Both the position numbers and the translations under genes were made by a program. From Phoronis ovalis (lineage: Eukaryota; Phoronida; Phoronidae), in NCBI GenBank assembly GCA_028565635.1, contig JAOXYB010038062.1, forward strand, positions 1 through 28,557: 28,557 bases of DNA, given 5' to 3'. Below are positions 1,261 to 27,744 of this stretch, piece after piece. The stretch's first letter is position 1. The number at the start of each line of letters is the position of its first letter. Under the pieces are notes generated by a model. It was given only the letters and a program-made list of their open reading frames with translations, ran no database searches and was not told the origin of the DNA.

Positions 1261-1310
1261 ATGGCTTTTAAAAGACTTGTGATGGCTACCAAGACCAAGT
1301 CAACAACCAG
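1261..1310 (+). CDS. Alternative first exon 1, with a GC splice donor
   Basis: The exon encodes MAFKRLVMATKTKSTT plus two bases (AG). It ends in AG followed by GCAAGT, a good match to the rarer GC-AG intron donor; no GT donor nearby gives the same phase. If it joins the exon at 2446, whose first base is T, the junction codon is AGT (Ser) and the frame stays open. The peptide is short and basic with several Ser/Thr near Lys, like the other N-termini. The product is unknown. The short length and non-GT donor make this less certain than the GTAAGT members. Confidence 0.5.
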
Positions 1311-2445
1311 GCAAGTTAAATTTATGTTAAAAGGTTGAAATACTTTTCATTTTTGTTGCACAAAACAATTTAATAATGAGTCAAATCATTTACTAAGTTG
1401 ATTGTTTTGTGATTCATTCAGTTTAAAGAAAATGAGATATAAATTCTTAGAGGATACAATAACAAAGAGATAGTGAAATCTTCAGAAATAGTGTTCTGTT
1501 TACAGATGTTGTTTTTCCTATCAGGAGGAGAACAACTATATCCTAAGTTTCTTTAACGTGATATCTAATGAAAAATACTCTGGGCGATTGGTTTTTAAAA
1601 TATTGTATTAGACCCTTAATTTGAATGTCTCGTTGTATTCTTAAAATGACAAAGAGCATTAGAACTCGATAACTTAATATCATCAAATCTGAATGAACAA
1701 TTATTGCTGAAGATTCATATGCTGCAACGTTCACATTTTTAGGACAAATTCATGTATAATATTGTTAAAATTGTTTACAGACTTAAAGCTATAGAAAAAC
1801 ACCGTGCATTTATCGACATATTTGTATAATTATATTAAGTTGCTTTATTTGTTTAAATTGTTTGAAAATATCAAGATTTATCGAATACAATGAACAATTC
1901 ATGATGGTCAATGCCAAAGGCCAACACTATTTGAATTTGGATTTAGATTGCATAGTGTCCATACATAAATCGCAGATATATTTAATTGTGTTATTATAGA
2001 GAATAATTTTACAGTAACGTCTCTATATTGCAGTGCGATGAAAAATTAGCAGTGCAATGTATAACAGACAATATGACATAAAATCATGTTGTGTACTTAT
2101 TTCTAATGAAGTCTAATCAATTTTTTTTGTAAATTTGAATCTTCATTACGCAAAACTGATGCAAAAAAACCTAATGATATTTATATGATTTGCCTTAACG
2201 TACGATTGGTGGTTTAATTTTGACTTTGCGAATTGTTGGAACTATTATAACTAAGATCTAAAAGCAGAATAGTGATATAGCGATATATGTAGACCTACCT
2301 AAAAAAATCAAAAAATTGTCACGCCCGTTTATCACTTTAACCATTTTAGATTTTTCTATGAAACATTAGACATTGCTTTAAACCTGACTTGGACAAGGCA
2401 GCGTGAAATATATCTAATATTTTGTTATACAACGTATATTTGCAG
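1311..2445. other. Putative intron 1, nothing recognised
   Basis: This AT-rich spacer separates the first exon at 1261 from the exon at 2446. Acceptor-like strings occur near 1504 and 1524, but the frames after them stop quickly. The last 30 bases lead into a usable acceptor, TATATTTGCAG, ending at 2445. Confidence 0.4.
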
Positions 2446-2655
2446 TGAGGATTCGAACAGTACGGACGGTTTCCTACCGCAGCCGCCATCCTCCCCTGCA
2501 TCAGCACTTGGCAGAGCGAAGTCCAAGTTGAGCGGTTTGCAAGGATTACAACAACAAACAGCAGATGGTCCATTTTGTAAAATAGGAACAGGGGCTTTCA
2601 TGAAATCTTTGAAAATTGTTAACGAATTCAAAAAGAAAAGAATCCTTAGTGCAGA
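2446..2655 (+). CDS. Probable internal coding exon, phase 2 at both ends
   Basis: A 210-bp block lies between an AG acceptor (2444-2445) and a GTAAGT donor at 2656. One base completes the previous codon; 69 codons and two bases follow. The peptide begins EDSNSTDGFLPQPPSSPASA, continues through GRAKSKLSGLQG, and ends with a basic segment (EFKKKRILSA). It is Ser/Pro/Lys-rich and low in predicted order, with no domain I recognise. The frame is open back to a TAA at 2300 without an ATG, but the protein-like composition starts at the acceptor. It could instead be a first exon starting at the internal ATG at 2600 (MKSLKIVNEF), which gives the same exit phase. Its likely upstream partner is the exon at 1261. 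Confidence 0.6.
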
Positions 2656-3027
2656 GTAAGTGAAATATTGTCATCCTTATTAAATATAAAGAAAATGTTT
2701 GTTTATGTGCTTGTAAATATAATAATAAATATACAGCCAAGTGAAGAATAGGCCTACATGAGAAAAAACAAAAATATTTATGTACGAAATACTGAGATGC
2801 GTTCAGAGCTGAAAAATTATAGGGCTTTTTCTTGTTTTTATAAATTTATTTCTAACAAATGGTAAAATACATTTGCAAGCGTTTTAACTTCTAGGAGCAC
2901 TACAGACAATAAAAATGTATAACGTATTTACTATAGGCATTTAAGTAGAAACTCCGTATCTACCCATGCACTGTGTAAGTGCCCTCTTCCGGTTAACATA
3001 CCTAGCTGTAATTATACGATCCAGGCC

Positions 3028-3036
3028 CTAACGTAA
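3028..3036 (+). promoter_or_regulatory. Conserved upstream element of U4 copy 1
   Basis: CTAACGTAA starts 97 bases before the U4 start. The same nine bases occur at 3821-3829 in the truncated unit and at 4579-4587 (98 bases before U4) in the third unit. The constant distance suggests an upstream promoter element rather than leftover repeat similarity, but no factor can be named. Confidence 0.35.
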
Positions 3037-3065
3037 CTTTGTCGTTGCATTAGATGTAAAGAAAT

Positions 3066-3088
3066 GACACCTGCGTAGGTACGAAAGA
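3066..3088 (+). promoter_or_regulatory. PSE-like element of U4 copy 1
   Basis: The element begins GACACCTGCGTAGGT and starts exactly 59 bases before the U4 start. The third unit has a related sequence at the same distance. Animal snRNA genes read by RNA polymerase II use a proximal sequence element bound by SNAPc at about this position and usually lack a TATA box, as here. The assignment rests on position and conservation between units, not on a known consensus for this species. Confidence 0.5.
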
Positions 3089-3124
3089 TTTTATGTTTAA
3101 ATTGTAATTGCACTTCGTTTCATT

Positions 3125-3268
3125 AGCTTTGCGCAGTGGCGGTACCATAGCCAATGAGGTTTATCCGAGGCGTGGTTATTGCTAGTTGAAAACTTTACCC
3201 AATACCCCGCGCTGACGACGTGAAATACCGTCGGCATGCGCAATTTTTGCACGCTCCTACAGGAGCAG
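3125..3268 (+). ncRNA. U4: U4 spliceosomal snRNA, copy 1 (full length)
   Basis: This copy starts AGCTTTGCGCAGTGGC and matches metazoan U4 along about 144 nt. The 5' stem-loop at 3150-3171 keeps the kink-turn sequences AATGAGG and CCGAGGC that bind the 15.5K/SNU13 protein. The segment TTATTGCTAGTTGAAAAC is the U6-pairing region (stem I). ACCCAATACCCCGC leads into the central stem. AATTTTTG (3242-3249) is the Sm site, followed by the terminal hairpin GCTCC-TACA-GGAGC (3253-3266). U4 chaperones U6 in the U4/U6.U5 tri-snRNP and is removed on spliceosome activation. All functional parts are intact and a PSE-like element is present, so it is probably active. It resembles vertebrate U4 more than my recollection of fly U4. 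Confidence 0.95.
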
Positions 3269-3282
3269 CATCTTAATTAATA

Positions 3283-3301
3283 GTAATGACATATATAGAG
3301 A
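3283..3301 (+). promoter_or_regulatory. Possible 3' box of U4 copy 1
   Basis: GTAATGACATATATAGAGA lies about 15 bases after the terminal hairpin. A close relative follows U4 copy 3 (4835-4853), and a similar string follows the truncated copy. Polymerase II snRNA genes use a purine-rich 3' box at this distance for Integrator-dependent 3' end formation. The call rests on position and conservation only. Confidence 0.35.
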
Positions 3302-3858
3302 TAAATTCATCTCATTACTGAGAAACTTCTGTTACATAACTCGTATCACGGTTTTATCACATACAACCAGATTATAAAGTCGATAGATGTCGCCCTTTTC
3401 CAAAGACTCTGTAGAACAAATTATTTATAAAGTGTACAATTCTTAGACCAGAACAGTGTTTTCCATCCACGATCAAGTAACTACTCAAACTAATTTACAC
3501 ATTTCTTTCTGTTTATTAACTTATGTCATAGGTACAGTAATGTAAATGAGGAAAAATATATTCAAGTCTGAAGTGTTATGATGCGTTTTTTTTTCCATAA
3601 ATTTATTCCCAGCAGTGGTAATATACTTACAAGCGTTTTATCTTAAAACAATGCCGTAGATGATAAAAATATATAACTGTGTTATATAAGAGATAAGCCT
3701 GAGTGCACATCGTCATTTATTTGCTTTATTGTATAAGCGGCGAATGTTGTGCAAATGATATTCAAAAGCTCCGTATGTGTCCACTGTGAGTTGCTTTCTT
3801 GCTGTCATCATACTCATGCGCTAACGTAACTATCACGCTGCATTAGATGTGAACTAAT

Positions 3859-3881
3859 GACACCTTCTTAGGTGTAGAATA
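3859..3881 (+). promoter_or_regulatory. PSE-like element left in the truncated U4 unit
   Basis: GACACCTTCTTAGGTGTAGA is the counterpart of the elements at 3066 and 4618 and is well preserved, although the gene body behind it has lost its 5' half. The CTAACGTAA motif at 3821-3829 is also kept. The unit may still recruit initiation factors without making a functional U4. Confidence 0.4.
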
Positions 3882-3910
3882 TGGTATGTTTAAACTGCAA
3901 TTGTACATTA

Positions 3911-3979
3911 CAATACCCCGCGCTGACGACGTGAAATACCGTCGGCATGCGAAATTTTTGATCGCTCCTACGGGAGCAG
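3911..3979 (+). pseudogene. U4: 5'-truncated U4 snRNA pseudogene (copy 2)
   Basis: Only the 3' half of U4 is present, from CAATACCCCGC through the central stem, an altered Sm region (GAAATTTTTG instead of GCAATTTTTG) and an intact terminal hairpin GCTCC-TACG-GGAGC at 3964-3977. About the first 75 nt are deleted, which removes stem II, the kink-turn stem-loop and stem I, so it cannot pair with U6 or bind the 15.5K protein. Flanking sequence on both sides matches the neighbouring units, so the loss is an internal deletion within a tandem unit, not a retroposed 3' fragment. Confidence 0.85.
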
Positions 3980-4617
3980 CATCTTAATTAGTAGGAATGC
4001 CATCTATAGAGATAAATTCATCCTCAAGCATAACAGACTCTTTTGTCAACAAGCCTTCAGGCTTTATAGAATTGCATAAATGTAAAATGCTTAGATATAC
4101 AAATAGTATTATCAAGCCTCGGTCAAGACTTTGTTATAATTTGATTCATCCTCATTAACTTCTTCTTAAATAATGTACAATTTTCTTTCATTTTTTTAAT
4201 CACTTATCCCACAGACATGGTGGTGTAAATAAAGAACAACAAAAATATTCAGGTCTGAAGTGTTAACATTCCTTTTATTCAGAGTTTTTTCTTCTTTTTT
4301 TCATATTTTATTTTCAGCGATAGTAATATATTTACAAGTGTTTTAGCTTAAAACGAAACTACAGATGATAAAAATATATGTATAATCATGTTAGCTAAGA
4401 GGTAAGTAACCCTGTGTGCATGTTTATTTTACATGTAGTGTACAACGTACTTTATTTTACATATATAAAGTAGTCAGTCTAAACAGCTATTGTCACATTA
4501 AAGGTAAAGCTCTGTATCTGCCCACTAGGAGTCGCCCTCTTGCGGTCAACATACTTGACTTTTAAAAATACGCATGCGCTAACGTAATTTGAACGTTGCA
4601 CTGTTATATGATGCAAA

Positions 4618-4640
4618 GACACCTGTTTATATGTAGAATA
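4618..4640 (+). promoter_or_regulatory. PSE-like element of U4 copy 3
   Basis: GACACCTGTTTATATGTAGA begins exactly 59 bases before the U4 start, as in copy 1. Bases shared by all three units are GACACCT at the 5' side and a GTA/GAA-rich 3' side. Confidence 0.5.
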
Positions 4641-4676
4641 TTTTAGATTTAAGGTGTGCTTGTGGATTGCCTCATT

Positions 4677-4820
4677 AGCTTTGCGCAGTGGCGGTACCAT
4701 AGCCAATGAGGTTTATCCGAGGCGTGGTTATTGCTAGTTGAAAACTTTACCCAATACCCCGCGCTGACGACGTGAAATACCGTCGGCATGCGCAATTTTT
4801 GTACGCTCCTACGGGGGCAA
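4677..4820 (+). ncRNA. U4: U4 spliceosomal snRNA, copy 3 (full length)
   Basis: This copy has the same 5' end, kink-turn stem-loop, U6-pairing region, central stem and Sm site (AATTTTTG) as copy 1. The 5' three quarters, from the first base through the Sm site, appear identical to copy 1 by eye. Differences gather in the terminal hairpin, which reads GCTCC-TACG-GGGGC (4805-4818) and contains a U-G wobble pair. Function is expected to be preserved. Near-identity of the RNA body against diverged flanks is the pattern expected from selection or gene conversion on a multicopy snRNA. Confidence 0.95.
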
Positions 4821-4834
4821 CATCTAAAATAAAA

Positions 4835-4853
4835 GTAATGAAATATCTAAGAC
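4835..4853 (+). promoter_or_regulatory. Possible 3' box of U4 copy 3
   Basis: GTAATGAAATATCTAAGAC lies about 15 bases after the terminal hairpin and matches the string after copy 1 at most positions. Support is positional conservation only. Confidence 0.3.
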
Positions 4854-5105
4854 TAAATTCAAGAGGTATATGTGATCTGTAGGTTTTCAGTTATTACATG
4901 TTGTGACAAAAACACACACACCAGGCCACAAAATCGGAAGATACAGCGCTTTTCCAAAGATTCCAGTTGTACAAAACATATAATTTGCAGACTGTGTTCT
5001 CCACCCTCTGTCAAGGTTTTGCTATTACATGATTTGCACTCATTAACTCTGCAAACTATTATTCTTTCAGTTAGGTTATCTCATAGGTACAGTGATGATG
5101 TAAAT

Positions 5106-5640
5106 TATTTATGTGCTGCGGTATGTATAGAATATTATATCACACAAAATAGTAACTAATAATATTGTTTTATTACTTTCAATTTATGACAAATTTCGAA
5201 TTATTCTAAAATTTTAGAATATGAAATGAAATGTTTACTGAAACATTATTGAATAAATTGATTAAAGTATTTACTCTCCAGTATTAGGTGGCATGTACGA
5301 GTCACATGAAAATCGAAAGCTGTATTTACATTGGGACTTTATTCATTTGATCGAAACCCGTTAAAAATTAACCATTTCGAAACCGGTTAAAATATTCCAT
5401 TTTTTATAGTGTGGACACAAATCGATCAAATCGATTATATAAATTAAAGCAGAGCGCTGTGTGGAAGCAACATTAGGTGACCTGTATAACAGGCGCATTT
5501 TTAACAGACTTCGAATTAGTGTAAAAACGGCTTATTATTAGCCTATTTTAAAATCTTCGATAATTGCATCATTGATTAAATTTGAATTTTCTGAAATTTG
5601 AGAAATGATTTTACTTTTAGCGAGGTACAAAATATGTGTT
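5106..5640. other. Spacer with a short direct repeat
   Basis: No gene is visible. A 16-base motif, TCGAAACCsGTTAAAA, occurs twice 27 bases apart (5351-5366 and 5378-5393) with one difference. Confidence 0.4.
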
Positions 5641-5953
5641 TACATTACGTTATATAGAGGGTGATTCTTTCTTTATATGGCTGACCATCAGTAACCAACT
5701 ATTCAGAGATATACAGAAATATTTATTATTCTGTATAAAAAACACTTACAGAATAATAAAGTTTCCACTAGATAAGTCATGAGATGTATGTATTTGTACA
5801 TTACGTTATATAGAGGGTGTGATTCTTTCTTTATATGGCTGACCATTAGGAACCAACTTTTCAGAGACATACAGAAATATTTATTATTCTGTATAAAAAC
5901 ACTTACAGAATAATAAAGTTTCCACTAGATAAGTCATGAGATGTATGTATTTG
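5641..5953. repeat. Tandem duplication of 156 bp with internal inverted repeat
   Basis: The segment starting TACATTACGTTATATAGAGG is repeated head to tail, with copy 2 starting at 5797. The copies differ by a few substitutions and small indels, so the event is fairly recent. Each contains TTTATTATTCTGT and ACAGAATAATAAA, a perfect 13-bp inverted repeat with a 13-base loop (5722-5734 and 5748-5760 in copy 1). The hairpin suggests a small foldback element or a replication-slippage hot spot. No coding sequence is visible. Confidence 0.85.
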
Positions 5954-6648
5954 TACTGCGCCCTGCCGTTTAATGAGACGTTTGGTTTCAACTGTAAGAG
6001 TAGCTACCGTATTTAGTATGTCGTGCTTAGTTGACAAGTCGGCTAATTACAAGGCGAAGTTTCAAGCCTACTCCAGACGTTTTATATTACAGCAAACAAA
6101 TATAGCCGATAGTGCAATGAATTATTAACACATTAAAATCATAACAGTTTGACCGATATGGTATATATTGACGTAGAAATGTAATTCCATATAATTCGGG
6201 AAAACGTTAAGTTTTACAGATAATAGACTGAATATGACTATCTATAAATTCTTCATTCGGTTATATACGCGTACGTTTACTCAACGCTGTTTGATTTAGA
6301 AGAAGAAGGTTGTCTTAAAGTAGTGGTATTGGACTCCATTGATATGATTTCACTTAACGTTATGGGCCTAAGATTCGATTAAACGTATTAGAATTTTCTG
6401 GTAAAAACTTGAAAAAGAATTGTCATAAGAGATCGCACGGAAGCTATATACCACGTGAAAATAAATACTTGTCAATCAAACTAGAGTTATTTCCCAAGGC
6501 GAATTTTCTAAGTGAAGCCAACTTTATAGGGAAAATGAAAAACTATAATAATAACTAACTTGGTTGCTATGGTAAAGACTTCGGATTTCATATAATTGCA
6601 ATGATTAAAGGATTTAACTATTCTGAAACTACAATCTACAAGAAACCT
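5954..6648. other. Spacer, nothing firm
   Basis: A 36-codon frame from an ATG at 6018 (MSCLVDKSANYKAKFQAYSR) ends in a stop with no credible donor inside it. Nothing else stands out. Confidence 0.35.
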
Positions 6649-6726
6649 CGTTATTTAACATCGTTATTTAACCTCGTTATTTAACATCGTTATTTAACAT
6701 CGTTATTTAACATCGTTATTTAACAT
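6649..6726. repeat. Minisatellite, 13-bp unit x 6
   Basis: CGTTATTTAACAT is repeated six times head to tail with one variant base (CCTCG instead of CATCG after the second copy). It ends about 125 bases before the ATG of the exon at 6850, so it may lie in that exon's promoter or 5' UTR. Confidence 0.9.
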
Positions 6727-6849
6727 GCATAGACAACAAGGCACATGACAGCTAGTTATTGTGTTTTTTTTTTGCAATTGTCGATATTTGTCAACAACAC
6801 AATCTTCATAGCGTTTAAAAGCGATGCGAGCATTTACCTTACTTTAAAT

Positions 6850-6995
6850 ATGTTGAAGAGAAGAAGCTCGTCAAAAAAAGTTTCCTTTAAATCTATTGTA
6901 CAAACTGCACTTGTATCTGTCGCCCTGAGTTCAAGTAGCCGCCGTCGTTTGAACAGTGACAGGACTGATGGAAGGGTTTCTAAACACTGTAACAA
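6850..6995 (+). CDS. Alternative first exon 2
   Basis: The exon encodes MLKRRSSSKKVSFKSIVQTA, then a small hydrophobic patch (LVSVALSSSS), then RRRLNSDRTDGRVSKHCN, and ends with AA before a GTAAGT donor at 6996: 48 codons plus two bases. KRRSSS and RRRLNS fit the basophilic kinase consensus. The same frame has an earlier ATG at 6745 that would add 35 residues, but that stretch is hydrophobic and unlike the other N-termini, so I start at 6850. No domain is recognised. A 13-bp minisatellite lies just upstream. Confidence 0.75.
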
Positions 6996-9241: not shown

Positions 9242-9336
9242 ATGGAAAAGCAGAGAATTTTGAAAATAGGTTCCAAATCTCGGAAATCACTTAACGTAGT
9301 TAACTCTACAAATCCTTTTGGATCAATTGCCAAAAT
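9242..9336 (+). CDS. Alternative first exon 3
   Basis: The exon encodes MEKQRILKIGSKSRKSLNVV and then NSTNPFGSIAK, ending AT before a GTAAGT donor at 9337, with 31 codons plus two bases. A TGA at 9200 in the same frame with no credible acceptor after it supports a first exon. SKSRKSLN carries an RKS basophilic site. The junction codon is ATN, so Ile or Met depending on the first base of the acceptor exon. Strong donor, small exon, unknown protein. Confidence 0.7.
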
Positions 9337-10651: not shown

Positions 10652-10767
10652 ATGTCGAAAAACAAAGCAAGGCTCTTAGGCAGAGCTGATAGTCGCAATG
10701 GGGAAAGAGTTACATCGCCAGTACAAAGACCGAAGTCTTTCAAAGCTACTTCAATCGGAATCATGTT
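10652..10767 (+). CDS. Alternative first exon 4
   Basis: The exon encodes MSKNKARLLGRADSRNGERV followed by TSPVQRPKSFKATSIGIM, and ends TT before GTAAGT at 10768: 38 codons plus two bases. An in-frame TAG at 10637 lies just upstream of the ATG. RADSR recurs in the exon at 26154, and SFKAT recurs in the weak candidate at 25679. TSP is a proline-directed site and RPKS a basophilic one. The tail is basic and probably disordered. The donor, upstream stop and shared words make this one of the clearer members. Confidence 0.8.
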
Positions 10768-12208: not shown

Positions 12209-12300
12209 ATGAAGAAGATAACTAAAACAGTAAGCGATTTGAAAGATCCGCGTGTAGAGTCAGCTGGCACAGGAGGGAACAGTCCAACTGACCGAAAAGG
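12209..12300 (+). CDS. Alternative first exon 5
   Basis: The exon encodes MKKITKTVSDLKDPRVESAG followed by TGGNSPTDRK and GG before a GTAAGT donor at 12301: 30 codons plus two bases. An in-frame TAA lies 12 bases before the ATG, so translation cannot come from upstream. The junction codon is GGN, always Gly, as in three later members. NSP is a proline-directed phosphorylation context. This peptide is less Arg-rich and more mixed in charge than its neighbours. Product unknown. Confidence 0.78.
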
Positions 12301-13859: not shown

Positions 13860-14380
13860 ATGAGTTCTGGCAAAGCAACACAATCTTCTCCTACCAATTT
13901 GCGTAGAAGGAGTATTACAGATTTAAGCATTAGGCTAAAAAGCGCGTCAAAGGTTAAAGGAAGCGGTGAAAATAGTACTTCAGAACAGTCATCAGGTATA
14001 ATTAAAAAAGGTACTTCCAAGGAAAAGGAGAAAAAAGCCACGGCTGGTTTGTATTTAACGCCACAAATAATAGTAAAAACTATACGCAGACGAAGCGTGA
14101 CCATTGCGGATATACCATTATCCTCTCAGTCATCACGACCAGATTCTAGATCTAGCACAACAGTCATGTCAAGTACAAGCAGTTCTGACAGTTTATCATC
14201 AAAAAAATCTCGCGAGAGAAGTACAAGCAGAGACAGAAATGTGAACGGTAAAAATCGCAGGCGGAATTCAAAATCACGATGCGGCGATGCCCCGGTAGAA
14301 GCCAGTCAATGGACTGCATTACAACAGGTGATGTTTAGACGGCCCTCTGGTGGCAATTCCAGACTAGGACTACCAAGTCG
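13860..14380 (+). CDS. Alternative first exon 6, longest N-terminus (173 codons)
   Basis: The exon runs from ATG to a GTATGT donor at 14381, 173 codons plus CG (Arg whatever the next base). The peptide starts MSSGKATQSSPTNLRRRSIT and is dominated by Ser, Arg and Lys. It holds at least four RRxS-type sites: RRRSIT (near residue 18), IRRRSVT (about 79), RRRNS (about 139) and FRRPS (about 161). SSRPDSR near residue 92 is shared with the exon at 18083. A Ser-rich run (STSSSDSLSSKKSRERSTSR) recalls SR-protein-like low-complexity sequence. No globular domain is visible. A chance 173-codon frame of this composition in such AT-rich DNA is unlikely, so this is the most secure coding exon. Confidence 0.9.
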
Positions 14381-16315
14381 GTATGTACTATGTAGTATGG
14401 TAATGACAAACTAAGTATTCGAAGAAAAAATATGCATCTATAAAGTACAAAAAAGCATAACTATATACGGCTTTCCTTTATACATTGTGATGAATATAAA
14501 AAAAATAACTGAATCCATTTAACGCAAGCGTATGCTCATACTCTAAACAGTATTTATAACCACATTATGAATTTTTACACATTTTGCTCACGTTTTGTGC
14601 TTTTCATTGAACTCGTTACGGCTATTCATTAGTGTGCTAATGTAGGAATTTAGCTTGTCGACAGGTGGCAGTGATAATCATACAGATATATAGATGCTGT
14701 GCATATGTAGTTCGATGATAGTGGGTATTGTTTGTGATCTTATAACAACAAAAGCTATAGATTGTCACCTAATATAGTACGGTGACTCTAGATCACGGAA
14801 TCTGTACGCAGTCGTCAGCAACTTTTTAATCAGAACAGAAATTATAATAGTCAAATTTTGTCTCTGTAAATTCTTCTGCGCATTACATGAATTTCTGGTG
14901 TTTCAAATCAAGGGAAATTTTTTTACGTAAAACATGTCAAAAATCTCATGTTTCCAGATCCAATTTTCTAAAGGGAATTTTCAGTTTAAGAGAAAGTCAT
15001 AACTTTGACACCCCATAGATATGTTTAAATGAAATATTATTATTTAGATTACGTTATTAAACTCATGCGTAGTTTAAAGGTAATAGCAGCCTTTCGAGTT
15101 AAATCACAACCGGTCACAACCGGTCACAACTCTCGTGTCGTTGATTATACATCTTGTAAACTTTCCACGTAAGACAGTAGGTGGGTGCAGTTTTTAAGCA
15201 CGATTTATAGTCTGTATATGTATTCACAGAGACGTTGGAATTTAAGGGAAAATCCCATGAGAAAATCATATCATATATCTAGCGATATTTAACTGGGACT
15301 ATTGTATAGCTAAGAGTTTGTTGGAATATTCCCAGTATATATCTAGGCTGCCGTCTTAGATAGTAAAACGTTTCATATTTTTTGTAGGTAATATTCGATA
15401 ACTATATAATACAGTTGTTGCTTTTTCCCGGTGCCTTACAAAGATCGAGGTAGTTACTGTAAATTATTAAAACTTTCAATAACACTTCACGTGAATATCA
15501 CGCGATCATTGATAGTCTAATGCATGGTAAATTCGTCTGGATAAGTGTACTAAATTTTAGAAGTTGTCATAATGATTATTGCTTGTTTTCTATTTGTTTT
15601 TTCAAAATCATCGGCCTTTAGTGAATATATACTTTTTCTCGTATAAATATTTTCAATAATTACGCATTATGCCATAGAAATGCATTCATTTATTTGCTGT
15701 ACCCCAAAAAATTTCAAATAAAATATGTCCACGATATATGAAATATTTAGCCTATTTATTACTAATCCAACAGAGAGCTAGTGAAAATCCGCCAATTGAA
15801 TACATATTTTATAAATCCACTGTTGTACACCCTAACTTTAAGTGTATATATTTTCCTTTGTGAATGCAGAACTGAGTATTTAATTTGGGGTTTACGATTG
15901 AATGGTGAACGCGCGGGTGACGTTCTTACAATATAAAACCTTATAGTTACTATATTTTTGGCTTCACATATTATTACATTATTTGATAAGGAATATATTG
16001 TGAAATACTGCTCAAAGATCTCACGATCATGGATTCATGTTGAAAACAATATCTTGGCGTTTGAGATGTATTACAAGAAATTTCAAATCGTGACATTTAT
16101 ATATATATAATAATTGCTAGCTTCGATCAGTTACGTGCAGGAAGAAATGTTCTCAAAATAGTTGGGTATCGGATTAAGCAAGGATGTTTCCATGGTTGTG
16201 TTTTTCTACATTTATTATTTTTATAAATTATACATTTTTCGCTATCTTTCTGATTATTATTATTATTATAGAATAATCAGTGCTTTCTGTTTTTATTAGA
16301 ATAGTGCTTGTGTTT
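14381..16315. other. Spacer, simple repeats only
   Basis: A 10-base unit CGGTCACAAC is repeated twice at 15111-15130, after a related AAATCACAAC. An ATT microsatellite lies at about 16254-16270 and a TA-rich run near 16100. No exon candidate is found. Confidence 0.4.
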
Positions 16316-16461
16316 ATGTCGTTCAGTTCACCTTTAAAAGTATATAGAGAACAATTCCATAGCCAAAAGCAAGTGGTTATACGTCTAACCAGAAAAGTTA
16401 TGTTCAAAAATATGTACACTGACATAAAGAGATTCTTTACTCGGATAAGTATGACGTCACT
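16316..16461 (+). CDS. Alternative first exon 7 (probable)
   Basis: The exon encodes MSFSSPLKVYREQFHSQKQV, then VIRLTRKVMFKNMYTDIKRF and FTRISMTS, ending CT (Leu) before a GTGAGT donor at 16462: 48 codons plus two bases. The donor is strong. The peptide is basic but more mixed, with hydrophobic residues and several aromatics, so it may be helical rather than disordered. Only 246 bp separate it from the next exon, whose promoter would have to be very close or overlap this exon. Phase agreement and the donor are the main support. Confidence 0.6.
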
Positions 16462-16707: not shown

Positions 16708-16820
16708 ATGTCAGGGCCAATGAAACGTGAAAAAACTAAGTCTGGCATGGTAACGCTTGGGGTAATCAATGAGAGACCTCATAGCCAATCATCAAGACCC
16801 AAATCTGGCGCCCGTTACGG
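16708..16820 (+). CDS. Alternative first exon 8
   Basis: The exon encodes MSGPMKREKTKSGMVTLGVI followed by NERPHSQSSRPKSGARY and GG (Gly) before GTAAGT at 16821: 37 codons plus two bases. SSRPKSGA is a variant of the SSRPDSR word in the exons at 13860 and 18083, at a similar place near the junction. It is Ser/Arg/Lys-rich with no recognised domain. Another ATG in a different frame at 16769 opens a longer ORF, but that frame has no phase-2 donor and lacks this composition. Confidence 0.8.
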
Positions 16821-18082: not shown

Positions 18083-18222
18083 ATGGCCTCACCAAAGCTG
18101 CCTCCGAGCGGAAGGCCTTTGAAACTTGGCTTTTGTTCAGCCAGTGTGATAGCTTCTAAAGTTACAGCAGCGGCACCTTCTCGACCCGATTCTAGACAAA
18201 AATTCAGACATTTCGGAATGGG
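18083..18222 (+). CDS. Alternative first exon 9
   Basis: The exon encodes MASPKLPPSGRPLKLGFCSA, then SVIASKVTAAAPSRPDSRQK and FRHFGM, ending GG (Gly) before GTAAGT at 18223: 46 codons plus two bases. APSRPDSRQ repeats the word seen in the 13860 exon. The opening is Pro/Ser-rich and the middle Ala/Val-rich. In-frame sequence is open upstream to a TAG at 18032 past an acceptor-like CACCAG at 18046. An internal exon entering there in this frame would have phase 0, at odds with the rest, so I prefer the ATG. Confidence 0.78.
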
Positions 18223-20388
18223 GTAAGTTTCATTCAGGTACAACATAGTGTGAAACGTCTTAATTGGGACTGGTTACAACCCTAGCGGCCCTAGCTACGT
18301 ATAGCCTTTAGTTTAGTTAATTCAGAGTTTCAACCAGTCGGAATAAATCTAGCCGCTAGTCATGCAGAGCCGCTAGTATTCCGCAGAGGAACGGAACCCT
18401 AATGGTTGGATTGATTCAGACTAAGTTTTCTAAATTTCAAAAGTAGCAATCAGCGTGCTTGTCACATTTTATACATGTGTCAAGGCGTTTTGAACTAATG
18501 CAACCGGATACAAGACTTTTTTAAGTTTAAGGCGAGTAATGTTTGAATGTTGGTATGGAGTAAGACCAAAGACTGGGATTGTTCATCGGCCTCCGTCTTT
18601 CTTGAACTTTTTGCAGTCGCAGTATGTATTAAATGCTTCTTATTGTAAACTGTTATTGATGTTGGTCACAAGGTGTCACTTATGCAGACAGTTTAGCTTT
18701 CGTGTTGATTTTTAAAAATATTAAATTAAAACATATATATAGTTACTTTGTTTTTCATGACTACTTTTACGTTACAATTTGGATATAAACATGTCCTTTG
18801 TCAAGCAGTGCCAAATATAGTCATGCCATGCATGAAACATTTATATGTCAAGCAAAATGTTGCCACTTAATTGCTATAGTTTCCTTATTGCAGTTCCAAT
18901 AGCGTTCACATTAGGCATCTTCCACATCTATCACTTCAGTTGTACTTCTTTACTTTAGGTTTATTCTGATAATTAGGTTAATTTGCTAGAAGATAAACAC
19001 TTGATACAGTAAACAAATATTAACCCTGGCTTAAAATTCCGTCACATGATAATGTCCGACTTTTTTAGATCGCTGCTCTAAAAGTACAAGTTATTCTGTC
19101 ATTTTCCGCCATTAAGATCGAAATCGACTAAAAAAAATAAACGAATGAGAGATCGTTTCATTACATCATAAACAATTGTGTTGTCATTATATTGTTCATG
19201 GACAGAAACTGTTATTATCGTAATTCGACAAATGACCGTATTACATAAATTTCGCCAATTGTCCGTTTGTTCTTGCTGTATTCGGATAATGACGGCCGAG
19301 AATGATAACTTTATACATGTAAGTCTTCGCGACTTTCGAGTTATGAACCGATAATTGTTACCACGAAACCGTTTTAGCGATTGAAATCTAAAAAAAAAAA
19401 TACAATCGGGCTATCGACTAATTGCCATTTAGTAAATAATCTTTTCCACAAACATGGATTTTTTTCTCAAGGAGATTTAATTGAATCCTGTCTCAAATTA
19501 CAATTATAGGTAACTTCAGATCAAAATTTTATGCCATTTTGCAAACAATAGCGAAGAATTAAATTAACTGAATTACTTGTTATACAAATGCTGAACTATA
19601 CAAAGTCAATCTGATAGCGAGAGTCCATACGCTACTAATCAATTGAACCGAGTGTATCGGATTATTTAAATAAAACGGAGATTAATGTTGCAATTAGCTT
19701 CACGGATTTAAGAAGATTCATCTTAGCTATTAGTGGGGCGTTAAGTCAATAGTTGACGGGTTGGTTGCTTAGTTTTAATATAATTGTCAGTGGAGGAAGG
19801 TGCGTCAATTGAGAAAATTCAATGTGACAATTTCCCGACGAAAATAACGGCGCAAAGGGACACCAATGAAATAAGAAAGCCATAAGAGGCAAACCGAAGA
19901 AATTTCGTAGCTTATTGTTGTACACGTGAGTCCTGTTTGTGTACTTATTTTGTTCGCTGCTACTGCTTTATAAAAATTGAACCATTATTTCGTTTCCGTA
20001 TCTGCCAATCCTGACTCGGACTTAACAGGAAATCGCATTATTAACTTGTATTAACTGCTGTCAGTGAAAGGAAACTCAGACTGAACTAGTCGAAAGAAAA
20101 GACATGGAAAACATCTTTAGTTGATTTGAACTTTACACTAACTTAAAATGTGCAAACTTGCTGGATTCTGTTGAAGACAATTCTTTTTTTGCAACTTGTG
20201 CAATGGTGTAAATTAATGGTGAGTGAAACTTTCTCAGTACAGACGATTCCAATCACTGAGTTAGAATAGCAGCCTACTGTCGATGGAAAATCGTTGAAAC
20301 ACATGTTATGTGACAGGAAACAAAAAAATTGAAATAACTAAATAAATTAAGGACTAAAAATAGTTACAAAAAATTTTGGTAGACAAAG
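18223..20388. other. Spacer with interleaved inverted repeats
   Basis: At 18268-18377 two short inverted repeats interleave: GACTGGTT/AACCAGTC and CTAGCGGC/GCCGCTAG, with a second AGCCGCTAGT at 18368. The remainder is AT-rich. A frame at 19290 (MTAENDNFIH) ends at a good GTAAGT donor but in phase 0. Confidence 0.4.
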
Positions 20389-20600
20389 ATGGCTGCCAAT
20401 GGTAACAGTCAATTACCGGCCATTGGACCGGCAACAACAAAACCTAAACCAGCTATAGTACGTACCTTGTCGCGTGCAAGTTTAAAAAGTGTTAGCTTTA
20501 GGGATTTACCTGAAGAATCTAGCTCTATTGGGACAGGCGCCAGCAGGACGTCAACTCCCAGCTCACGGGTTGGGTCGGGAAAATACAGCCATAGTCGCGG
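20389..20600 (+). CDS. Alternative first exon 10
   Basis: The exon encodes MAANGNSQLPAIGPATTKPK, then PAIVRTLSRASLKSVSFRDL, PEESSSIGTGASRTSTPSSR and VGSGKYSHSR, ending GG (Gly) before GTAAGT at 20601: 70 codons plus two bases. The start context AAAGATGG is close to the animal optimum, and an in-frame TAG lies at 20380. SRASLKSVSF is a dense basophilic phosphorylation context, and TSTPSS a proline-directed one. KSVSFRD resembles KKVSFKS in the exon at 6850. Low-complexity and probably disordered; no domain. Confidence 0.85.
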
Positions 20601-22853
20601 GTAAGTTTGAATGAAGCAAAGAAAAACGCAAACTCGGGAACAAGTATCTACATAAACAGTTTCAGAAAGCTAAATTTAAAGTAAAATTTCTACTTCATTG
20701 TTCTCCCCAGCATCCCCCAAGTGATTTTTGGCGCGGTGTACCGTGTAATAGATAATTTGGAGAACTTCCTAAATTTTACAGCCAGGCTTCGACCATTGTT
20801 GTCTGTGTACTCCGTGTACTTATATGGAATTTTATTTACTTTATGTGCGGTTGATGTTTTCTGAACTGTTAGCACAACCCATAATAAACTACAGCTTTTT
20901 GTTCGACTATTAACTTTATCTTCGAGCTTGTTATAACTGTTTTCACTTCCATTGCCCAAAGTAGGATTTGTGATGTCTTTTCTTGTTGACAACATGCATG
21001 CTTCTTTGTATTGTATGTAGTATATTTCCTATATATGCAGAACATAAGTTTATAAAAGAAATATATAGTAGTGATATCTACACTAATCATGTGTAATGAA
21101 ATTAAAAATTGCATACATGTACTATAATTATAAAAAAGGCGTATTCGCATCTGAAATATGAATAGATAGCATAAAAACCAGTATTCAATTCATATTATAG
21201 CGAAAAAAATTCTCTTGTATCACCAATTTTTTGATTTTTTTTTTTTGAAGGTGTATACAAAAATATGCCCAATTAGAAATATTATGTGTTTTATGCGTAT
21301 CATAATTTGATACGGACACGAAACTTTGTTAAAACTTGCTTATTTAAAATGCATTTGCATCCATTAGTTTTACCTGAGAAACCTCTTCATAATCAATTGA
21401 AGCATATGTATGTACTAAGAGCTTTTAATACCTACAGGCTAGCGCACTTAATTAAAACGTGTATAACATGATTATAAAAAAGACAGTATTATTAAAGATT
21501 TCATTAGAAAATCGATGGCTTAATTAGTCAACCTGTAGAGAACTCGCTGTTAATATCTCGTCTTTACGGAAGTCATTCAAGTCCTTAGAGAGATGGGAAA
21601 ATAAAGAACGCAGATATTTTTGGATCAGAAGTTTATGGGTACAGTGCACACTAACGATGTATAAGATGTGTAAATATAAATTTTTAATATTTTATTAAAT
21701 TGGGCTTCTTCATAGCAGCATTTACAAACCTTCCCTCTGCGAATGTGATTTTTGCTGGATTTCCACCTATATTTATGTTCTAAGCCACCATTTCCTATTA
21801 ACAAACCACTGTTATAAAGACTTCGTTAGCTGAAAAAAAATGTACAGGTAGCAAAACCCTACTTTCTGACACACAGCTTGCTTACAACATAAAGCACTTC
21901 GTATGAAGGTAGATACCACATTTATGCACGTCTACAGACATATAGGAGTTACCAATGCCAGCGGGCATTGTGCCTCCTAGCATAGAAATCAACATTTTCA
22001 TTACATTCCAGTCATGAATTTGTTAGAGTAATTTTCGAAATTTCTTTTGTTAATTAATATTGTGGTGTATTAGGTATTCTTTTATTGAGAAGAGCCTAGG
22101 GGTTAGACGAAAATGTTGAACCGGCTCATTAAATGTAAACAAGCATCGTGTTTCTCAAGTATATAACTCGGACACTTGTTACCTTGCACAGTTTACTAAA
22201 AGACAACTTTAGAAACATGATGACACTTGACGTTGCGCTCTGTTTTCATTATGTTGAATGTAGGTGACCGAATTAAATAAGCTAGACTTTACTACACAGA
22301 TTCATGATTTATTGTATATCTTGTATTATTCGGGTCGATTCGTTTATTATTCGCGATTTTCGCGGTCACATGTCGTCCGCGATAGTAATTCAATATGTAA
22401 AATAGGAATATTTGCTTTTCCATTCGGGAAAATTAAAACTTGTCATACCTATGTGGATCATACTTTTGTTTACGAAACCAAGTCTACCTATGCTAATGTG
22501 ATCTCCCTATGGTTCAACTCGGAGGAAATTGAAAGATTCAAATATCGCCATGACAACTGCTGAGTTTTGCACTTGATATTTATAATGTTTTTATTGATTC
22601 AAGTATAAAGGATTCCTGAGGATGAGTAGTGTTCGTTGTCTTACAAATTGCTTCAAGCAGTTGGCGTCTGCTGAATACTGATGATCTATGTTACGACTCA
22701 AGAGCGAGACATAATTCTACGACGGAATCTGATATTTCAGCAAATAATTTAGAATATATTTAGAATTAAACAGTTGAAACGCGATGTTTCACATTTGGCA
22801 TTATAGCCATAGGCTACGGGAATATTGAACTATAGTGCTTAATTTACTAAAAC
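20601..22853. other. Spacer, chance ORFs
   Basis: A 99-codon open frame at 22264-22563 begins right after an acceptor-like TGTAG. It has no internal ATG, and entering it in phase 2 would meet TGA at once, so it does not fit the array. It is probably chance. A weak exon candidate at 21349 is listed separately. Confidence 0.35.
21349..21407 (+). CDS. Weak candidate first exon
   Basis: ATG to a GTATGT donor at 21408 gives MHLHPLVLPEKPLHNQLKH plus AT, in the same phase 2. The peptide is His/Pro/Leu-rich and lacks the Ser/Arg character of the others, and the frame is part of a longer chance-like ORF. Phase alone would match one time in three. Confidence 0.2.
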
Positions 22854-23128
22854 ATGAGCCGTAAGCAGAAACCACCGTCTTTAACTTTGCCGACCATTGG
22901 CACAAATCAAGAAGGGCCGTATCGTCACGCCCCCTCACGGTTGAATCATTCTGCATCAATAGGATGTCTGACAGACTGTTTGCCAACTTCACCCCGGGTC
23001 CGTAAATCTTCTGCTGGATATAGGACGAAATTAAGCGCTAGTAAATCCAGTAGCAGCACTGAAACGTTGTTTACACCGAGGAGTACTAAAGTGAGATTTC
23101 GGTATGAATACACTGGTTCGTCACCAAG
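22854..23128 (+). CDS. Alternative first exon 11
   Basis: The exon encodes MSRKQKPPSLTLPTIGTNQE, then a stretch with SRLNHSASIGCLTDCLPTSP, RVRKSSAGYRTKLSASKSSS and FTPRSTKVRFRYEYTGSSP, ending AG before a GTACTT donor at 23129: 91 codons plus two bases. An in-frame TAA sits immediately upstream (22848). The donor is weaker than GTAAGT but follows AAG. LPTIG echoes LPAIG in the exon at 20389. RVRKSS is basophilic; PTSP and FTPR are proline-directed contexts. No domain is recognised. Confidence 0.8.
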
Positions 23129-23559
23129 GTACTTTTAAAAAAATATTTTTTATTTCGTTTTGCTGTTAATTTCAGTAATATCATAATGTTTCAGTGATAT
23201 CTTTTTTATTTAACACTACCTTATAAATCCATACGATGTACGATCGCTGTTGCATGATTCATATATTTTTTTTAGCTTTTAAAATATGTTGATGGTTTCT
23301 AGCTTTACTACTGTCCCGGGGGCGGGTACTGTCCTTGCTCTGATTATTCTGGATCTGTCTTGCGAGTTTGTTTTCTTGCGAGGTTTGGTTTCCTCAATCT
23401 ATCGTACATTTACTAGTAGTACTGTCAACCCCTCTATCACTGGTGACGTCATCTGGCAAATGCCCGTTGGGCCACTTATTATGTCATCACAACTTTGTTA
23501 CGTTTGGATATTCATATAAGTACGCATACATGTTTGTTAGTGTATCTAAAACATGAAAA
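23129..23559. other. Short spacer with GC-richer patch
   Basis: Sequence at 23290-23510 is richer in GC and open in two + frames (from 23286 and 23368), with hydrophobic translations lacking known motifs. GT sites there do not give phase 2. It may include the promoter of the next exon. Confidence 0.35.
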
Positions 23560-23657
23560 ATGCAAGATACAAAACAAAATACAGCGGCTCTTCATACGTC
23601 GCCGTGTGAGAACCAAACTCCAATCAGTCGACTGGCCGTGACACCGGTGATACAAAG
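23560..23657 (+). CDS. Alternative first exon 12 (probable)
   Basis: The exon encodes MQDTKQNTAALHTSPCENQT followed by PISRLAVTPVIQ and AG before a GTACTC donor at 23658: 32 codons plus two bases. A TGA in frame lies two codons before the ATG. The donor is modest but preceded by AAAG. The peptide is Thr/Gln/Pro-rich rather than Arg-rich, with HTSP and VTPV proline-directed contexts. It follows exon 11 by only 431 bp. Support is phase, upstream stop and similarity in style, so moderate. Confidence 0.5.
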
Positions 23658-24974
23658 GTACTCACAAATACTCAGATACTATGTAAGCTGGCAATTTGTA
23701 CCAAACATTTCGCTTGTATGGTTCTGCTTATTCTTTGGTTCCAACTGTTAATCGGGGTCAGACTGAGGCAAAGGGTAAACTGTAAACGTTTCAGTTAAAA
23801 AACTTGTTTTAACATGATGCTGAATAGATGAATGACAGTGGTTAATATTTATTTTTTGGCAATAGTTATTGTTAATTATTTTTTGTATATTGTTACTTAA
23901 CGCAAGGTGGTCATGACTTACAAGGCTGCCGGCCTTGGTACTTGTTACATATCTTAGATTTCGCTTAGAATTATAAGTTATGTCGTCAGTTGTGATTTAA
24001 ATACGTCAATTATTTTTTCTGTCATGCCTTTTGTTAGTGTAGTATCCGGGGCTAGTATAGCGTGTACATGAATTTTATAGTCGGATTTTTATCCACGAGA
24101 CAGATATCATAGAAGACTCATGTCTGAATCATTCTTAAAACTATTTTAAATATGCATGATTCAATAAAAACTTCGATGTTTAAGAATAATACTTTTCTTC
24201 TAATAATATATTTAGCGAAAATGGGGATTTTTGTTTAGAAATGAATACATAGTTTTAACTTATATTTAAAAGTATAAACATCTATTTTTTTGGATAATTA
24301 TGAATTTTCAATTATTTCAGCATCATAATATTAACTTATCATAAGTATGAAACTTTTAAAAAGTAAGGTAAACAATTTAATTGGAACCGGTGCTTTTACA
24401 AAGTGTTCTGCGGTTTAAGTTAACTATACAATTAACGAAGTGTCGCCTGTAGACAAATATTACGAACAATAAAATTTACATAAAACCTGTTCAAACATAT
24501 AGCTACTTGCTTATAAAACATAGTCATTATACTGGCTTTTAACGGCTTGGGAACAGCAAGATTCATATTCCAATTATTAAATATAAATTAAGAAAGAACT
24601 GTCGCTAAAAAGTAAGTTTAACACTAACATCGCCTCGAGCTGAAACAGGATTGTATTCAGTTGTGAATTTTTGATGCGAAAACTGTTAACTTCTCCGGAG
24701 AACTTCTATCCGACTTTATATACTGTTGGAATGTAATCTTCCATACTACTGGCAAGATTTAGAAACTCCCTCAGAAAAAACTATATTTCGTGTGTTGGAT
24801 TGAGATCTTTGCTGTATTCTCCCCTGGGGGCTTGTTGATTAGTTGATTAAAGGTTATAAGAAGACCTCCTTGAAAAAGATAATGACATAGACAGTCTCTT
24901 CTACTTTCAACATTGAACCTCATTGATTTCAATGCATTCAGCAGTCTTATCATTTTCATAACGGATTAAATACA

Positions 24975-25065
24975 TAAGAAATTAAAAGATTTATCTGTGT
25001 ACTTAATCGTCTTAACGACAAAGTTAAGAAATTGAAAGATTCATCTAACTTTGTCGTGAAGACGA
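24975..25065. repeat. Foldback: 20-bp stem with interleaved direct repeat
   Basis: TCGTCTTAACGACAAAGTTA (25007-25026) pairs with TAACTTTGTCGTGAAGACGA (25046-25065) at 19 of 20 positions across a 19-base loop. A 22-base direct repeat, TAAGAAATTrAAAGATTyATCT, lies at 24975-24996 and again at 25025-25046, so its second copy fills the loop. The stem and loop sizes are near those of a microRNA precursor, but no known microRNA is recognised. A small mobile-element remnant is an alternative. Confidence 0.7.
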
Positions 25066-25678
25066 CTGTGGACGTTGTTTGTTTTGATTTGCGCTTGTCA
25101 CAAGCCAAGTGCACTATAGCCGGTTCTAGGGTGCGATTAGCCAACCACGTCAGCTATTTTGGCTCCTGATGGTCACATAGAAGACATGGTACTTGTCTAG
25201 GGTGCGATACGACACCCGTGTGTGTTTTATTAGGTCATATTTTTGCGATGTCTAGCTCATCACGTGGAATTTGATAGCAGATCAATATATACCTTTTTTT
25301 TTAGCAAAAGTGGATTAGAATTTTTAGCAACTTTTATTTTTAAGAAAATTAAGATTGTTCGTATTTCTAGTGCGAAATTGGATTATTATTCGATTCTTCA
25401 ATTTGGATTACGAGACGGCAATTAAGTTGACACAGAGTTGTACTCATATTGAAGATTCGAACAGTCAAGAACGTTTTTTCAATTTTAGACAAAACATCTA
25501 ACACTTTAAGAATGCATAGATCACACGGTCTATTAGCATGCAATTGTAATAATCGAAGTTTAACCACATAGTAAAACTAATCACAGGTGACGGAATACAC
25601 TACAAAAAGAAAAGCTATTGTTTGCAAATTGAAATAATAGACGAGTTGATTTTATAAATATTTAATGACAGTATTGAC

Positions 25679-25743
25679 ATGTATGAGACATGTATGCCTA
25701 AGCGTAAAATACAAAGGAGAGGCAATAGTTTCAAGGCAACGGA
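25679..25743 (+). CDS. Weak candidate first exon
   Basis: ATG at 25679 encodes MYETCMPKRKIQRRGNSFKA and T, then GA before GTGTAT at 25744: 21 codons plus two bases in phase 2. RRGNSFKAT carries a basophilic site and shares SFKAT with the exon at 10652. The donor is poor, and the frame stays open to a TAG about 55 bases on. A longer ORF overlaps in another frame. Composition is persuasive, the splice site is not. Confidence 0.3.
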
Positions 25744-26153
25744 GTGTATGGACGAAACTATGGTTCAGATGTTTCCGATATATCCGGATACTTTTTAGAA
25801 GAATGTCTTTTGTAAATTTTAAATCATTTGAACGAAGTAAAGTACTGGAGGCAGTATTTGTAATGTTTACTGTTTCGAGTACTCTTTAGAATTTCTAGCT
25901 ATCGACTTTCGCCTGGTTTGTTTGTAATAAGTGCTGTTGACATTGACTTGATGCTGGGAAGGTACATAACATTTATTCAGTAACTTCGGCAATAACTACA
26001 TGGATTGGAAGACCATCCACTATATTCTGTCGTTGGCAACAAAAGGAGTATTTATATTTTGAAAACTTTGTAGGTGTTCTTCACCTCGCAACCCCAAAGA
26101 GACCCGTGTGGATTATCATTTTTTCTTCATTCCTCTAAATTTCGTCTCAAAAA

Positions 26154-26572
26154 ATGAGTCGTCGAGGTTCCGTCATGACAACGAACTTGAAGGCGAAGTC
26201 TGTGGCTTCTTCTAAACGATCAAGTTTAAAAGAGTCCACACCATTAGGATTTACAAGGCTAAGTTCAATATCAGAACCTATGCCTGTCAAAGAAGGGGAC
26301 ATTTATTATAAAACAACTAGATGGTATCCATCTGTGAAAGACGAAGAAGATGAAGAGGTTTACGTCTCAGTTGTGAGACCGGATATTGTCAGCACCACCG
26401 GGGCCAACAGAACCCACCCCCGTTCAGCGGGGAAAGATTCCTCGGAAAGGGCGGATTCCCGGAGAGGCTCGGTCATGAGTGACAAAGCTCGAGATGAAAA
26501 CATAGCAACCCCAGCACCAGGAGACGAGACATTGAAGCCAGACAGAGAACATACAGAAAGAGGTGTAGGAAG
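26154..26572 (+). CDS. Alternative first exon 13, long N-terminus (139 codons)
   Basis: The exon encodes MSRRGSVMTTNLKAKSVASS, then KRSSLKESTPLGFTRLSSIS, an aromatic and acidic middle (YYKTTRWYPSVKDEEDEEVY), and a charged tail with ERADSRRGSVMSDKARDE. An in-frame TAA lies at 26136. I place the donor at 26573 (AAG before GTGATA) because it keeps 139 codons plus two bases; a competing GTGTAG at 26563 would give another phase. SRRGSVM occurs at residue 2 and again near residue 102. SRRGSV and SKRSSL are basophilic kinase contexts, and ADSR is shared with the exon at 10652. No domain is recognised. Confidence 0.82.
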
Positions 26573-27673
26573 GTGATAAATTAAGTTCCCTTAATACATT
26601 AATTAAAAGTATTAATTTTTTTGATAGATATAGGTCCCGGGATATAAGTCGACCAAGTGTTTTTTTCCCTTTGTTATTTACGTCTGAAACCCGGTCTGAG
26701 ACGACTACGTTCAAACTATCCAGCATTTCTTAGGCCTACACGTGAATAACACGATGCACAGTACAGAAACACTGCGGTATATATATAATATTTATCATGG
26801 ACAGATTCACTGAATGTTGAGTATATAACTCATTAGAAAAGTGAGAATCTGTTAGCTTTTAGATACTTTAAAAATAACTTTTAGTAAAACTATACAATAA
26901 AAGCATTACTAACACTTTATTTAAAAATCTTATATCAATAAGAAATATGTCCGTAAAAATAAGATAACCGCAGATTTGGTTGTCGGGTTATCTCATGCTA
27001 TATCTGAACTTGCAGAGCAAAATATTCACAAAATACTAATATAAATTCGTAATCATGCATGGTCGAAACTATCCATTTATCAGTGTAGATGTCATATATT
27101 ATGTATCAAATGTAAATTACTTGGAATGTTGAACCCATGACATTTCAAAACGGATTTCCTACAGCCTAGAACATTTTCTTGTGGACCAATTTTTGTGTAA
27201 CAGATGTCACTGTACACCGTGACAAGCCATTGACTTGAGTGTACTTTTTCTCAGTTTATAAGATAAACGTATTAGTTTTGATCTAGGCTTACTATTTGGT
27301 TGTGGAAAGAAAGGCTGCACTAGTTTTTAAAGATTAATTTGAATTATAATGAGTAAATATGCTGGACAATCAAAGTTTCTTGGTTACATGTCAAACATAT
27401 TGGTTACTGTGAAATGAAAGCAATCAATCTATATGACACGTATAACTCAAAAATAAAGTTTATCTCTAATCCCTTATGACTGAAATTTATATTTATGAAA
27501 AATAGTATTATCCAAGCAAAATACTAGATTTTATCTGGATTTTGCTGCATGGGTGCGACATCTAGCGAGTATAGGAAAATTCACTTGTGTCACGACTTGG
27601 AAACGGGACGCTAAATTTGGGATCTATCTTATGTGTTCAGATTTCCAATTTTCATGTTAAGTGATTAACCAGA
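26573..27673. other. Spacer, nothing recognised
   Basis: AT-rich. A frame at 27350 (MSKYAGQSKFLGYMSNILVT) ends in a stop with no phase-2 donor and is not accepted. Confidence 0.35.
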
Positions 27674-27744
27674 ATGGCTTCTAAGATTGTAAAGAAGAAA
27701 GAATCTCAATATTCAGTGAGAGTAAATTCGGGCTGCGGAAAAGA
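27674..27744 (+). CDS. Alternative first exon 14
   Basis: The exon encodes MASKIVKKKESQYSVRVNSG followed by CGK and GA before GTAAGT at 27745: 23 codons plus two bases. An in-frame TGA at 27662 precedes the ATG, and the context AGAATGG is favourable. Very short and basic. Two other GT sites inside (after TCA and AGA) would leave different phases. The junction codon GAN gives Glu or Asp. This is the last member seen; the shared acceptor exon should lie downstream of the window. Confidence 0.75.

Follow-up and report, generated by a model that had tools for sequence, protein, structure and literature searches.

An array of putative alternative first exons at the 5' end of the androglobin gene of Phoronis ovalis

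A 28,557-nucleotide stretch of the genome of the phoronid Phoronis ovalis (assembly GCA_028565635.1, contig JAOXYB010038062.1, forward strand), hereafter called the window, is identified here as the predicted 5' part of the androglobin (ADGB) gene. We propose that about a dozen alternative first exons within it feed a single ADGB exon 2 beyond its end, so that the protein would swap its N-terminal tail, and we give this reading a probability of approximately 0.85. The sequence-only reading from which we started had claimed about 14 first exons, all on the + strand and all leaving in phase 2, and the 14 ATG-started blocks (named by the start coordinates of their frames) were indeed all found in place. 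They did not stand equally well: 12 tails in the window were regarded as credible, with unequal strength, together with one candidate on the adjoining contig C951 (2948-3012), while blocks 16316 and 23560 were set aside as doubtful and block 1261 reads best as part of a two-exon tail (1261-1310 plus 2446-2655). The tails are spread over approximately 26.5 kb, and the 12 retained in the window are rich in Ser, Arg and Lys (S 17.5%, R 9.7%, K 9.6%).

The common phase of the blocks was most apparent at donors of sequence GTAAGT. Nine such donors on the + strand followed ATG-started frames that stay open for 23 residues or more; by their longest frames, 1, 0 and 8 of them were in phases 0, 1 and 2, respectively, and the same threshold gave 0, 1 and 1 on the - strand. 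In 1,000 sequences simulated with a first-order Markov model the mean was about 0.4 qualifying donors per phase, four donors in one phase were reached once and five or more never, and under equal odds the probability that at least 8 of 9 donors share a phase is 0.003, so the claim that the agreement of the GTAAGT donors goes beyond chance was borne out. The single out-of-phase donor, at 19319 (phase 0, 29 residues), followed a frame whose codon usage was not coding-like. The sequence-only reading had admitted that phase helped to pick the donor at 1261, 16316, 23560 and 26154; to these, two more blocks must be added, because phase-0 donors outscored the phase-2 ones both at 13860 (4.3 bits at 14328 vs 2.0 bits at 14381) and at 22854 (2.2 bits at 22998 and 2.4 bits at 23091 vs 0.2 bits at 23129), and phase also steered the choice there. 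The frame running into donor 6996 contains ATGs at 6745 and 6850, the latter being taken as the start by judgement. Codon usage, scored after training on 418 codons of the downstream gene, was coding-like (p<0.05) in 8 of the 14 blocks (1261+2446, 10652, 12209, 16708, 18083, 20389, 22854 and 26154); as the null windows comprised at most 150 bases, these p values are rough for the longer tails.

The common body, which had been claimed to lie beyond position 28557, was located in the same assembly (77.4 Mb in 4,805 contigs) on contig C951, 16,164 bases in length, which carries androglobin exons in order and on the + strand. The last 77 bases of the window are identical to the first 77 of C951 and were found on no other contig in the assembly search; the match probably represents the usual end overlap between neighbouring contigs of a k-mer assembly. 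A search for overlaps at the far end of C951 and at the start of the window found no other contig. The C951 exons are collinear, in nine pieces, with approximately residues 36-530 of human ADGB, the pieces at residues 36-61 and 112-140 being individually weak (E 0.015 and 0.30). Their peptides include the calpain-like N-terminal domain (Pfam Peptidase_C2, E 3.7e-9), and this part also matches the solved ciliary protein FAP42 (E 1.9e-9). The Androglobin_II domain was found on a separate contig, C4640. An ADGB-led query with the C951 exons retrieved 479 proteins, and among the 120 listed, the top named ones were androglobins.

The first androglobin exon of C951 starts at about position 3559 (tttatag/G GCA GCA TCA ATT GCT), its acceptor being in phase 2 and the exon opening with a G; the downstream exon with a phase-2 acceptor that had been anticipated is there. 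Both parts of the canonical start were present, MASKxxKKKES in the window (27674-27744) and AAS...WPEW/F in C951 (from 3559). With the G supplied by this acceptor, the reading frame of every tail would continue through AASIAG...WPEF to the calpain-like domain. The junction codons of all 14 tails were sense codons (E, K, M, L, G, R, L, G, G, G, R, R, R and E, respectively), which is a weak test because only TA before the G creates a stop. The earlier thought of a signalling gene had to be given up, the body being that of androglobin, a ciliary and sperm protein. Two candidates for the common body were rejected: PDE4, since the PDEase_I matches lay elsewhere in the assembly and none fell on the window contig or C951, and AMPK gamma, since CBS domains gave no match. 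The PDEase_I matches on contigs C4544, C1947 and C514 consisted of long open frames with few introns or with an in-frame stop; the assembly also contains intron-rich PDEase_I matches and may comprise more than one organism. The only COX1 found in it, on contig C1114 (TGA read as Trp), was nearest among the 120 listed matches to that of the phoronid Phoronopsis harmeri (90% amino-acid identity), followed by an ENA entry (87%) and by molluscs (up to 86%), which points to a phoronid as the probable source, provided that C1114 belongs to the animal.

That a single gene bears many first exons, as had been claimed, was supported by the predicted androglobins of other animals, which start with different N-termini but, in most of those inspected, continue with one shared exon, AASIAAS...WPEW. 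Two or more tail types joined to this exon 2 were seen in 7 of the 36 species examined (chosen from the 120 listed entries), with 4 types in Crassostrea virginica, 3 in Mytilus edulis and 2 each in Mya, Dreissena, Apostichopus, Littorina and Styela; these counts are lower bounds because the entries are cluster representatives, and the entries of some species stem from different assemblies. Wherever the exon boundary was clear, which was not so in a few rows (Symsagittifera, Clavelina, Pomacea and Physella), the residue before AAS was R, E, L, M, G, S or A; each of these can be encoded by a codon with G in third position, which is what a phase-2 junction supplying G would require. Many database androglobin entries are themselves labelled as isoforms (Mytilus edulis X50, Mercenaria X26, Crassostrea virginica X2 to X22).

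The window tails were then compared with the N-termini of the 120 listed relatives, and the E-values given here hold for that small set. Tail 26154 matched Pinctada (1.3e-11), Pecten, Dreissena, Mercenaria, Ostrea, Crassostrea, Haliotis and Mytilus, and weakly Lottia (0.005), and tail 27674 aligned to Owenia P0011 with 71% identity over 24 columns, including the final E (E 4e-4). In a shuffle test against 88 distinct tails from other species, cut automatically before the AAS motif and partly hand-checked (some, such as P0082, still include body sequence), these two tails beat all 200 shuffles (p=0.005 each) and were the sole significant ones. The array is judged to be in part ancient. Tail 1261+2446 had looked by eye like the MAxFKKL-type tail of Mya, Crassostrea and Lineus, an assignment that we rejected as its best score (Ruditapes P0022) was not significant (p=0.085); the same tail had no match in the PDB, and the Pfam matches of five tails fell below the curated cut-offs.

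These comparisons bear on a different view of the locus, in which 27674 is the only androglobin exon among the blocks, those upstream serving as first exons of another gene situated beyond the array or of a number of genes. In its favour, the assignment of blocks 1261 to 23560 to androglobin is drawn from genomic sequence, but relatives of tail 26154 precede androglobin in database entries of seven bivalve species and of Haliotis, weakly also of Lottia, the common phase fits the ADGB acceptor, and no other + strand gene body was noticed between the array and exon 2 on C951, where frames were read and no family search was made. We consider this view very improbable.

Similarity among the tails, described earlier as low, did not rise above chance: only 2 of 66 pairs reached p<0.05 where 3.3 were expected (12 tails, 16316 and 23560 being left out). 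An origin of the array by recent exon duplication was rejected on this basis. A frame at 24347-24418 of the window, MKLLKSKVNNLIGTGAFTKCSAV, resembles by eye KIGTGAFMKSLKI of exon 2446-2655; no good phase-2 donor was noticed there, and it is possibly a decayed tail. What the tails do share is an excess of R-x-x-S/T sites, 34 in the 12 window tails vs 20.4 in shuffles (p=0.001) and 108 vs 71.4 in 49 non-redundant tails of other species (p=0.001), which suggests control by basophilic kinases. A motif R[VPIL]xS, spotted by eye in the window, was weak in the 49 other-species tails (p=0.018 for sites, 0.047 for tails).

In the mechanism that we propose, each first exon would provide its own ATG and a Ser/Arg/Lys-rich tail, exit in phase 2 and join the one ADGB exon 2, which begins about 3559 bases from the start of C951. 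The blocks would all be transcribed and would replace one another in the transcripts, each presumably from a promoter of its own that serves particular ciliated or sperm-forming cells. The tails, R-x-x-S/T-rich and probably disordered, may alter how a ciliary protein that is otherwise constant docks or is regulated by kinases. A broader proposal is that the alternative N-terminal tails of bilaterian androglobin form an ancient bank, some of them predating the split between molluscs and phoronids, each on its own ciliary promoter of the RFX/FOXJ1 type and together giving cell-type-specific versions; this we advance tentatively, rating its chances as well short of even. Sites resembling the RFX X-box, with one mismatch, were found at 970, 6563, 17716 and 27375, in every case 287-367 bases upstream of the start codon of a tail. 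When another spacer was allowed in the scan, further strong sites appeared at 5681 and 20392, not upstream of any tail.

Several observations weigh against the array as proposed, or against the roles suggested for it. The array is a prediction from genomic sequence, and the join between the window and C951 rests on a 77-base end overlap, which is also the mark of a possible branch in the assembly graph. Some blocks have weak donors or better-scoring rivals out of phase, and codon usage was not significant in 6 of the 14 (6850, 9242, 13860, 16316, 23560 and the canonical 23-residue block 27674). Twelve of the 14 tails had no significant match among the 88 known tails (p 0.085 to 0.95), and a protein search with all tails alone returned nothing at E 0.001 among 8,000 scored candidates. 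The X-box enrichment is marginal and only suggestive, the distance having been picked after looking: at 400 bp the rotation P was 0.013-0.031 for summed and strongest scores and 0.075-0.092 for sites scoring at least 9, and at 600 bp it was 0.045-0.44, depending on the measure. In Tetrahymena, loss of Adgb is reported to have led only to minor changes in motility (PMC8175508).

Taken at their strongest, the missing homologs and codon-usage signals, together with the weakness of 16316 and 23560 throughout, would mean that only two or three blocks (26154, 27674 and perhaps 1261+2446) are working androglobin first exons, the rest being decayed or chance phase-2 frames. The 12 tails lacking a homolog rest on phase, donors and, for 7 of them, codon usage, and it is here that this alternative meets its difficulties: the 8 GTAAGT donors (9 if frames of at least 15 residues are admitted) share a phase for which they were not chosen, 7 of the 8 coding-like tails have no significant homolog, and fast-evolving tails would lose detectable homology; oyster and mussel entries have 4 and 3 different tails, respectively. 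We regard so reduced an array as unlikely and retain that of about a dozen alternative first exons, whose coordinates are collected in Table 1.

Table 1. Predicted first exons and related features of the window and of contig C951. Slashes mark exon boundaries; dots after a sequence indicate that its beginning is given.
Feature	Sequence	Position	Strand	Splice site or boundary	Codon-usage p	Remarks
Tail A, first exon	MAFKRLVMATKTKSTT	1261..1310	+	GC donor (AG/GCAAGT) at 1311; leaves in phase 2	0.001 (both exons)	Likely GC-AG intron
Tail A, second exon		2446..2655	+	Acceptor ttgcag/T; donor GTAAGT; phase 2 in and out	0.001 (both exons)	
Tail B	MLKRRSSSKKVSF...	6850..6995	+	GTAAGT, phase 2	0.24	Weak codon usage
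Tail C	MEKQRILKIGSKSRK...	9242..9336	+	GTAAGT, phase 2	0.33	Weak codon usage
Tail D	MSKNKARLLGRADSR...	10652..10767	+	GTAAGT, phase 2	0.003	
Tail E	MKKITKTVSDLKDPR...	12209..12300	+	GTAAGT, phase 2	0.001	
Tail F	MSSGKATQSSPTNLRRR...	13860..14380	+	GTATGT at 14381, phase 2	0.064	173 aa
Doubtful tail	MSFSSPLKVYREQF...	16316..16461	+	GTGAGT (2.7 bits)	0.30	No significant homolog
Tail G	MSGPMKREKTKSG...	16708..16820	+	GTAAGT, phase 2	0.017	
Tail H	MASPKLPPSGRPLK...	18083..18222	+	GTAAGT, phase 2	0.006	
Tail I	MAANGNSQLPAIGP...	20389..20600	+	GTAAGT, phase 2	0.004	
Tail J	MSRKQKPPSLTLPT...	22854..23128	+	AAG/GTACTT, phase 2, weak	0.009	
Doubtful tail	MQDTKQNTAALHTS...	23560..23657	+	GTACTC (-0.3 bits), weak	0.056	No significant homolog
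Tail K	MSRRGSVMTTNLKAK...	26154..26572	+	AAG/GTGATA, phase 2	0.001	Homolog of an alternative tail of bivalve and gastropod androglobins
Canonical androglobin first exon	MASKIVKKKESQYSVRVNSGCGK	27674..27744	+	GTAAGT, phase 2	0.129	
Contig-end overlap		28481..28557	+			Exact match (77 bases) to the beginning of C951
Candidate tail	MARRASSALSAHLGADLRNHS	C951: 2948-3012		GTAAGT, phase 2		Lies after the canonical exon 1 and before exon 2

Between tails A and B, the window also holds two complete U4 spliceosomal RNA genes on the + strand, at 3125-3265 and 4677-4817 (Rfam scores of 120.5 and 119 bits), and a partial U4 copy at 3911-4022, all within units repeated at approximately 1.55 kb. An ARAGORN scan found no tRNA.

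Clusters of alternative first exons are known from other genes. At the 5' end of the plectin gene (PLEC), many unrelated short first exons are spliced to a common exon 2, whereas the variable first exons of UGT1A and of the clustered protocadherins are large, similar duplicates encoding whole domains. The sequence-only reading had invoked all three, and the likeness held for plectin, which shares with the window many unrelated short first exons giving different N-terminal tails on one exon 2, although plectin is a cytolinker and androglobin a ciliary and sperm calpain-like globin protein. With UGT1A and protocadherins the window has in common an array of alternative first exons ahead of a common body, but its exons are short, not detectably alike and encode tails only. 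As the tails show no mutual similarity above chance, the cluster is plectin-like rather than UGT1- or protocadherin-like. A further close parallel is provided by the predicted androglobin isoforms of molluscs and other invertebrates, in which, as here, different tails sit on the same exon 2 and to which two of the window tails are homologous; those isoforms are gene models from single species, whereas the present analysis describes the array in the genome, with its extent and constant phase.

A literature search, with supplementary files and most subscription papers outside its reach, returned no description of a bank of alternative first exons for androglobin. No paper was found that combines androglobin with alternative first exons, or ADGB with alternative promoters, isoforms and cilia, and none of the retrieved literature on alternative first exons in molluscs or other invertebrates dealt with androglobin, as far as titles and the beginnings of abstracts tell. 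Such isoforms are not mentioned in the available passages of PMC5650170, retrieved with androglobin, isoforms and oyster; the main text of a recent evolutionary study (PMC13331133) lacks words beginning with 'exon', 'splice' or 'promoter', and, in the part available, treats near-identical entries from one species as possible isoforms or artefacts; and the passages available of PMC11119863 describe one promoter region only. The type of cluster is thus known, and androglobin appears to be undescribed as a member of it within the literature searched, although databases already list the isoforms.

The protein concerned has been placed in cilia and sperm. In Tetrahymena, Adgb is reported to be part of the central apparatus, in its C1b/C1f projection, and to co-precipitate with Cfap174 (PMC8175508); mouse Adgb is reported to be required for sperm flagella and to bind septin 10, the N-terminal truncation of human ADGB used in that work starting at residue 58, beyond the tail (PMC9249397). 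If the broader proposal holds, a single-copy ciliary gene would yield versions of a central-apparatus and sperm-tail protein differing in kinase sites and docking, and would diversify through its choice of promoters rather than by being duplicated. Work on a single isoform would, if the array is real, cover only part of the androglobin protein, and the question whether different ciliated cells and sperm carry different androglobin tails becomes testable. A large and partly conserved bank of starts of this kind would be a hidden route of diversification.

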